Below, in pieces: positions 14,831-15,739 of a stretch of DNA of 64,000 nucleotides. Under the pieces are notes generated by a model that was not told the origin of the DNA, searched no databases, and worked only from the letters and a program-made list of their open reading frames with translations. Position 1 is the first letter of the stretch; each line of letters begins with the position of its first letter. A program made the translations under genes and the position numbers. This DNA is from Ascidiaceihabitans sp. (lineage in GTDB: Bacteria > Pseudomonadota > Alphaproteobacteria > Rhodobacterales > Rhodobacteraceae). Location of the stretch: positions 1-64,000 of the forward strand of contig JAOKHV010000008.1 of the NCBI GenBank assembly GCA_028248455.1. Direction: 5' to 3'.

Positions 14831-15007
14831 TGAGCCTCCCTCTTTGAAGTGGTCCGCCCCTGTAGTTAGGAAACGGATGAACATAAATGGCCATCAAGAA
14901 ACCCAAGCCTGAAGAGATTGTCGTGAAGTTACGGCAGGTTGAAGTTCTCATGGGGCAAGGCATGCCCCAGATTGACGCGATCCGTCAGATCAGTGTGACT
15001 GAACAAA
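14831..15007 (+). mobile_element. Truncated left end of an IS3-family element (same element as 51509-52726)
   Basis: Begins with tgagcctccctctttgaagtggtccg and encodes [40 protein letters not shown]; nearly the same as the intact copy, then diverges after 'gaacaaa'. Confidence 0.9.
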
Positions 15008-15035
15008 CCGATGAAATCAAATGTGGGGTGTAACT

Positions 15036-15181
15036 AAAAAACGGCCCCATGGGAGGATGGGACCGTTTCTAAACAACCGAAACACGATCTGGGAGGAAAG
15101 TATCGTTCGGTATCTATGCATCGCGATTAATGCGATTTTGTTTGAACAGCGGTGGCATCAAGGGAGGAGAGATGCCACCGC
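15036..15181 (-). ncRNA. Array of hairpins with CCUCC-type (anti-SD) loops, CcsR/'cuckoo' sRNA-like
   Basis: Three consecutive stem-loops on the minus strand: 15149-15181 (10-bp perfect stem gcggtggcat/atgccaccgc, loop ctctcctcccttg), 15077-15110 (loop containing ctttcctccc), 15036-15068 (loop cctccc, followed by a T-run like a terminator). All lie directly downstream of a DUF1127 gene. Confidence 0.75.
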
Positions 15182-15229
15182 CAGTACAGGCGCTCAAGGT
15201 AGGAGAAATCACGCCCGATTTCTGAATTC

Positions 15230-15454
15230 TTATTGTGCGTATGCTGTTTCCCAAGCGATGCGGCGTACTTCAGAGCGAGAGATGCCCAAGTCTGCCAAAT
15301 CGCGGTTGCTCAGGGCACCCAATTCATTCATCGTGTTCTTGTACACACGACGTTTTGCTTGGCGCTCTGCAGCGGCGGCAAATGCTGTTGATACTGTAAA
15401 CATTAGACGTTCAATCAAAGTCGCGTTGGCGGCTGTATCTGTAAAGTATGTCAT
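15230..15454 (-). CDS. DUF1127-domain small protein (YjiS/CcaF1-like)
   Basis: 74 aa; 'RRVYKNTMNELGALSNRDLADLGISRSEVRRIAWETAYA' is a typical DUF1127 C-terminus. Confidence 0.93.
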   Translation of the reverse strand: MTYFTDTAANATLIERLMFTVSTAFAAAAERQAKRRVYKNTMNELGALSNRDLADLGISRSEVRRIAWETAYAQ

Positions 15455-15739
15455 GTCTTGTCCTTTCGGGACTGCGTCTTAGTGGTCGGTTTAGACAGTG
15501 GATTGTTCGTCTGTCTTCGTAGGTGTTGATGGAGAAATAGTTGATTTGAGTGTTGGTACAACAGACAGATCGGCAATTCCGGTATGTACAATTTGCATAG
15601 CTATTAGAGGTAACAATTTTTGTGCGTGTTGAGGGTAAATTGGGTGTTTTGAAAAGGTCCTGCAAACGGTCAGTTTTTGCTAACCAACAGCGAGATTATT
15701 GCTGCAGTGTCGATAAGGCCCGATGTGTCTCCAACGTCG

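Follow-up and report, generated by a model that had tools for sequence, protein, structure and literature searches.

The closest described counterpart of the locus studied here is the CcaF1-CcsR system of Rhodobacter sphaeroides. The published account describes co-transcription of CcaF1 with the CcsR RNAs and RNase E maturation aided by CcaF1, presents CcaF1 as an RNA-binding protein with an effect on the maturation of CcsR, assigns the promoter to the RpoHI/RpoHII type, and cites the association of DUF1127 and CcsR as the CIN1 locus (PMC10253847). The stress-related CcsR RNAs derive from a 3' untranslated region (3'UTR) (PMC8625941), and the flhR mRNA is a target of the R. sphaeroides CcsR RNAs (PMC8307010). 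In Sinorhizobium meliloti, the anti-Shine-Dalgarno (aSD) loops of NfeR1/ar14 pair with translation starts and regulate mRNAs (PMC7143759). Activation of this cuckoo-type RNA by LsrB is already known in S. meliloti, where the LsrB motif in the NfeR1 promoter is TGCA-N6-GCAT (PMC10746234). LsrB/VtlR has been reported to be unique to the Rhizobiales and always to lie next to trxB there (PMC11975290); the VtlR box of Brucella is CAATGCAGCCATGCA (PMC12595884).

The stretch analyzed here (the window, 64,000 nucleotides from Ascidiaceihabitans sp.) contains a CIN1 locus, that is, a DUF1127 gene with CcsR/cuckoo RNAs, which is ordinary in type and offers a compact example from a marine group of the Rhodobacteraceae. 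The locus itself is of a known kind, and what this analysis adds is an LsrB-type operator found across the Rhodobacteraceae together with an orthologue of LsrB. An extension of the LsrB circuit to the Rhodobacteraceae or to DUF1127-CcsR operons was not found in the open-licence papers that were searched.

Layout of the locus and its hairpins

The features of the locus, in the order in which the minus strand is read, are as follows.

15574-15599, minus strand: decayed LsrB/VtlR-type operator, consisting of the dyad TATGCAAATTGTACATA and the box I remnant TACATACCGGAATTG, at the position homologous to the intact boxes of relatives
15534-15561, minus strand: putative core promoter of the form TTG-N18-CTAT, with TTGTAC (15556-15561), 16 nt and TATTTC (15534-15539)
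15457-15467, minus strand: probable ribosome-binding region of the DUF1127 gene (GAAAGGACAAG), judged from its sequence
15230-15454, minus strand: DUF1127 gene, CcaF1-like, 74 amino acids (PF06568, 43.2 bits; cut-off, 23.3)
15144-15221, minus strand: CcsR1-type sRNA unit, HP1 plus HP2 (RF02791, 30.3 bits, below the gathering score of 65.3)
15187-15217, minus strand: HP1, the first of the two hairpins of the CcsR unit, with a stem of 7 bp and the loop CTCCTACC (fold, alignment)
15147-15183, minus strand: HP2, the second of these two hairpins, with a stem of 13 bp and the loop TCTCCTCCCTT (fold, alignment)
15076-15112, minus strand: HP3, imperfect stem, loop motif TTTCCTCCC (minimum-energy fold, alignment)
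15036-15070, minus strand: HP4, 14-bp stem, loop CCTCCC, followed by a T-run (fold, alignment)

The DUF1127 proteins of the closest relatives are 90 to 97% identical to the 74-amino-acid protein of the window. A second DUF1127-like place in the same genome (L002), which scores 21.7 bits and thus lies under the cut-off, lacks CCUCC hairpins. RpoHI/RpoHII-type promoters are recognized by TTG at -35 and TAT at -12, and the TTG-N18-CTAT sequence at 15534-15561 fits this pattern as a putative promoter. Its TTGTAC element aligns with a conserved TTGTGC element in related loci. A plus-strand open reading frame that runs across the array (15021-15482) was taken as a mechanical antisense reading and given no weight. 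Directly past the terminator, a plus-strand open reading frame of 48 amino acids (14887-15033) presumably resembles the start of an insertion-sequence transposase; a Pfam search with it returned no match, even at an E value of 10.

An initial annotation of this DNA, made from the letters alone, had described a DUF1127 gene followed on the minus strand by hairpins with CCUCC loops, and the PF06568 match and the minimum-energy fold bear this out. It had counted three stem-loops after the stop codon. All three are real, and the array has four because a motif that had been noted as a weaker ttctcctacc is in fact the substituted loop of the first hairpin, HP1, on a stem of 7 bp at 15187-15217. The 10-bp hairpin placed at 15149-15181 exists as HP2, with a stem of 13 bp and an extent of 15147-15183; likewise, the hairpin with a ctttcctccc loop at 15077-15110 is HP3, with an extent of 15076-15112 and an imperfect stem. 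The proposal that the last hairpin (given as 15036-15068), with its cctccc loop and T-run, is a terminator agrees with the 14-bp stem of HP4 at 15036-15070, which is probably both an aSD hairpin and an intrinsic terminator.

Loops 2 to 4 each contain CCUCCC. The loop of HP1 reads CTCCTCCC in aligned relatives versus CTCCTACC in the window, owing to a C-to-A change at 15200 on the minus strand; this change is either lineage specific or a base error in the assembly. The minimum-energy fold of the 200-nt 3'UTR (15030-15229), a check that the initial annotation had proposed, contains the hairpins and has an energy of -70.9 kcal/mol, compared with a mean of -47.4 ± 3.7 kcal/mol for 200 dinucleotide shuffles, none of which was as low (z, -6.4). 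A partition-function calculation on the presumed transcript leaves the HP2 and HP4 loops fully open, that of HP2 with an unpaired probability of 1.0, and those of HP1 and HP3 partly to mostly open. CCTCC occurs 34 times on the minus strand of the window and is enclosed by a hairpin with a stem of at least 8 bp in only three cases, the strongest two of which are HP2 and HP4.

Family matches and conservation among relatives

At gathering thresholds, the Rfam search over the window yielded only a tRNA, and no small RNA family reached its cut-off. In a model search of the kind also suggested at the outset, the covariance model of CcsR1 (RF02791) matches HP1-HP2 with 30.3 bits and an E value of 1.7e-5, below the gathering score of 65.3, and across the genome this is the sole significant CcsR1 match (E, 1.6e-5); the assembly of 2.08 Mb is 76% complete, so that other copies may be missing from it. 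A weak match to ar14 (RF02344) covers 15035-15188 with 28.8 bits and an E value of 0.0015, below the gathering score of 58.8. Since both scores fall below the cut-offs, curated membership in these families does not follow directly. The low CcsR1 score is typical: among 121 Rhodobacteraceae genomes, CcsR1 matches with an E value of 0.001 or less were obtained in 99, and only 7 of the 121 exceed the cut-off. Matching relatives from the same genus score 31 to 36 bits at the same place, those from other genera score 38 to 62 bits, and the locus L115 scores 104 bits. The four loci L113 to L116 are all above the cut-off, and in them CcsR1 starts no more than 1 or 2 bases from the stop codon of a DUF1127 protein of 71 amino acids, the length given for CcaF1 of R. 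sphaeroides (PMC10253847). Among the 30 RF02791 loci retrieved, 22 have a DUF1127 gene upstream on the same strand and 8 (L120, L123, L124, L125, L128, L132, L133, and L136) have none within 1.5 kb.

A lack of conserved stem-loops in related genomes had been named in advance as one of the observations that would speak against the assignment. Among 90 related DUF1127 loci (84 distinct loci, since six are duplicates), 83 carry at least two CCUCC-loop hairpins behind the gene. The mean number of such hairpins in the 500 nt past the stop codon is 4.8 per locus over the 90 loci, compared with 0.16 in the upstream stretch and 0.02 on the antisense strand of the same loci. The stems covary: when 15 HP1-HP2 units are aligned, two-sided changes are seen at 10 of 18 pairs and 93.7% of the cells are paired, and for HP4 the corresponding values are 7 of 13 pairs and 98.4%. 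The double changes in HP1-HP2 and HP4 exceed those in every one of 500 shuffles, the covariation score of HP1-HP2 was reached by 0 of 500 shuffles, and the signal is lost when the partner columns are slid by 1 to 3 positions. The loop is nearly invariant across the aligned relatives while the stems covary. Judged from these sequence comparisons, the hairpin structure is under selection. HP3 can be aligned among the close relatives of the window; in more distant ones its stem aligns poorly.

Sequence, structure, synteny, and relatives thus all support the homology to the DUF1127-CcsR locus that was originally put forward, and the expectation that copy number and sequence would differ from those of R. 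sphaeroides was right, the window having one full CcsR unit and two further hairpins. The HP1-HP2 unit is present twice in L009 as a tandem duplication, which explains how copy number can vary; CIN1 arrays would then grow by duplication of two hairpins, as in L009, and erode by substitution in loop 1. Near the CIN1 locus of Sulfitobacter sabulilitoris, a cobalamin riboswitch (RF00174, 97 bits) was observed on the minus strand (L041:2909-3124).

An LsrB/VtlR-type operator and its candidate regulator

Upstream of the DUF1127 gene, most of the related loci share a common operator with the consensus aTGCAnTTnCTGCATaGCaGCATtG followed by TTGTGCAnnTGCAGCAT. Upstream of 61 of the 84 loci lies a sequence that agrees with the Brucella VtlR box at no fewer than 12 of 15 positions, in the same orientation in 59 of the 61; the reversed motif is found in 0 of 84, and shuffles gave 0. 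The S. meliloti motif TGCA-N6-GCAT is present in 67 of the 84 loci, and its reverse is again in none. In the 66 loci in which both elements could be parsed, box I lies 26 nt (51 loci) or 27 nt (15 loci) from the TTGTGC element. When 49 genomes were scanned with TGCATRGCNGCATTG, each match upstream of a DUF1127 gene preceded three or more CCUCC hairpins, and the remaining matches were in or beside unrelated genes with 0 or 1 hairpin after them. The box and the hairpins occur together in 67 of the 84 loci, hairpins without the box in 10, the box with fewer than two counted hairpins in 5, and neither in 2. Three of the five loci with the box and few hairpins (L087, L088, and L092) have visible CCTCC repeats that were missed by the counting rule, and 5 of the 10 loci with hairpins and no box are the window and its clade. 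The operator is present in the CcaF1-type loci L113 to L116 too, and the operator or its second half lies upstream of five of the eight CcsR-type loci that have no DUF1127 gene within 1.5 kb (L120, L123, L124, L125, and L132).

Some loci depart from this arrangement. The DUF1127 genes of L105 and L109 have an operator-like box and no CCUCC hairpin array downstream. L046, L057, and L096 have hairpins with another upstream element, of the type GCATAACGGCAATGCAGCG..ACGTTGTTCAGG, which is perhaps a divergent operator. The genome G004 has two CIN1 loci, L037 (G004:C9:105496-105714) and L036/L007 (G004:C49), and the operator box of the second (TGCATAGCGGCAATG) is better preserved than that of the first.

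The first box has decayed in the window and likewise in L003 to L007, the relatives closest to it. The remnant TACATACCGGAATTG (15574-15588) agrees with the Brucella VtlR box at 10 of 15 positions, which is chance level, and what has been kept is the position and the 26-nt spacing to the TTGTAC element. The link to LsrB is therefore a statement about the family that is weakest at this locus, and if the LsrB reading holds, control in the clade of the window would have moved toward the core, RpoH-like promoter.

A candidate regulator was sought with one trxB-linked LysR protein as the query against 20 Rhodobacteraceae genomes; of eight alphaproteobacterial genomes from outside this set, six have a LysR gene directly after trxB. 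A full-length match was found in 17 of the 20 (45 to 50% identity; E, 3e-79 to 1e-89), and the next-best paralogue had 34% identity or less. An orthologue is thereby recognized in 18 of the 20 genomes, one of which, that of the window, has a fragment cut by the end of a contig (G000:C10:215-784; 54% over residues 1 to 190). In a tree, the Rhodobacteraceae proteins, with that of the window genome included, group with trxB-linked LsrB (support, 100/98). A LysR regulator beside trxB was not found in the Rhodobacteraceae checked; the upstream neighbour there is an AsnC/Lrp-like gene. Another candidate from the window genome, a LysR protein of the GcvA type, was dropped, as the trxB-linked LsrB queries gave a much better orthologue. 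Among the 20 genomes, an LsrB match was absent from G003 (53% complete) and G010 (94% complete). The CIN1 locus of G010 is preceded by a perfect operator box (C4:794996-795010), and this combination may reflect incompleteness or may be evidence against the LsrB reading.

On balance, we consider it fairly probable from the sequence comparisons that the LsrB/VtlR orthologue directly activates the DUF1127-CcsR operons of the Rhodobacteraceae by way of a two-part operator, CTGCATaGCAGCATTG and then TTGTGCAnnTGCAGCAT, whose parts are 26 to 27 nt apart and which overlaps the -35 element. This proposal covers operons like that of CcaF1 in R. sphaeroides and several CcsR loci that lack DUF1127. It would be compatible with the RpoHI/RpoHII view of the promoter, since the TTGTGC element could serve both LsrB and RpoH. 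If true, LsrB control across the Rhodobacteraceae would imply that the LsrB-cuckoo RNA circuit of S. meliloti predates the split between Rhizobiales and Rhodobacterales, and the redox-responsive LsrB circuit and the aSD sRNA arrays would form one conserved alphaproteobacterial module.

Proposed mechanism, alternatives, and comparison with known systems

The window demonstrates the anatomy of the locus and conserved C-rich loops on covarying stems, and the mechanism is one that we infer by analogy. As in R. sphaeroides, a single transcript would start about 70 to 80 nt upstream of the DUF1127 gene, span this gene and the four hairpins, and end at the HP4 terminator. RNase E, aided by the DUF1127 protein, would then cut the 3'UTR into small RNAs; HP1-HP2, the complete two-hairpin unit, would yield one CcsR RNA, and HP3-HP4 would yield a second, terminator-bearing species. 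On the model of CcsR and NfeR1, the loops may pair with the purine-rich Shine-Dalgarno (SD) regions of target mRNAs, which would repress translation and shift C1 and transport metabolism under stress. In this genome, weaker pairing is expected of loop 1 with its C-to-A change. The explanation as a whole, a CIN1 locus with CcsR-type processing and aSD action, appears highly probable to us; the Rfam scores below the cut-offs, the incomplete assembly, and HP3, the weaker hairpin with a loop that is partly open in the ensemble, count against it.

It is unlikely that the hairpins act only in cis, as a structured 3'UTR and terminator that stabilize or process the DUF1127 mRNA and give rise to no trans-acting sRNA. 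HP4 and its T-run do make a good terminator, and CcsR RNAs do come from a 3'UTR (PMC8625941). However, such a role has no need of CUCCUCCC repeated in several loops while the stems vary freely, 8 of the 30 retrieved hairpin loci of the RF02791 type have no DUF1127 gene closer than 1.5 kb, and the CcsR RNAs of R. sphaeroides act on the flhR mRNA (PMC8307010). That the loops mainly sequester the DUF1127 protein, giving feedback instead of mRNA targeting, seems very unlikely. This idea draws on the RNA binding of CcaF1 and its effect on CcsR maturation (PMC10253847), and on the joint occurrence of the gene and the hairpins in most loci. The conserved part of the loops, however, is complementary to SD cores, the aSD loops of NfeR1 regulate mRNAs (PMC7143759), and loci with hairpins and no DUF1127 gene exist.

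Repeats with conserved loops do occur between bacterial genes, which is what might suggest a dispersed, REP-like element. We rejected this reading, and with it a chance cluster of C-rich hairpins, as scarcely credible, because the genome has a single significant CcsR1 match and the hairpins are strand specific and positioned behind DUF1127; the covariation of the stems also argues against both.

The preferred reading as a CIN1 locus with aSD RNAs can be set against three described systems. Like CcaF1-CcsR1-4 of R. sphaeroides (RF02791), the window has a small DUF1127 gene with a two-hairpin CCUCC-loop unit and a probable terminator behind it in the same orientation, and it has a putative -35 element of the TTG type. 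It differs in having one full CcsR unit with HP3 and HP4 in place of four CcsR RNAs, in its shorter loops (CUCCUCCC versus CCUCCUCCC), in the substitution in loop 1, and in an Rfam score below the cut-off. With ar14/NfeR1 of the Rhizobiales (RF02344, the cuckoo RNAs), it shares variable stems, aSD loop motifs, and a last hairpin that is probably the terminator, and most of its Rhodobacteraceae relatives share the LsrB-type TGCA-N6-GCAT upstream. NfeR1, in contrast, is an sRNA encoded by a gene of its own, has three loops, and is controlled by NtrC as well, whereas the hairpins of the window follow a DUF1127 gene and its own LsrB-type site has decayed. Finally, the Rhodobacteraceae resemble the LsrB/VtlR regulon of Agrobacterium, Brucella, and Sinorhizobium (AbcR, VrsA, NfeR1, and DUF1127 genes) in the type of operator and in having an orthologue of its LysR regulator; unlike in that regulon, the regulator does not adjoin trxB in the Rhodobacteraceae checked, and the operator of the window is a decayed one.
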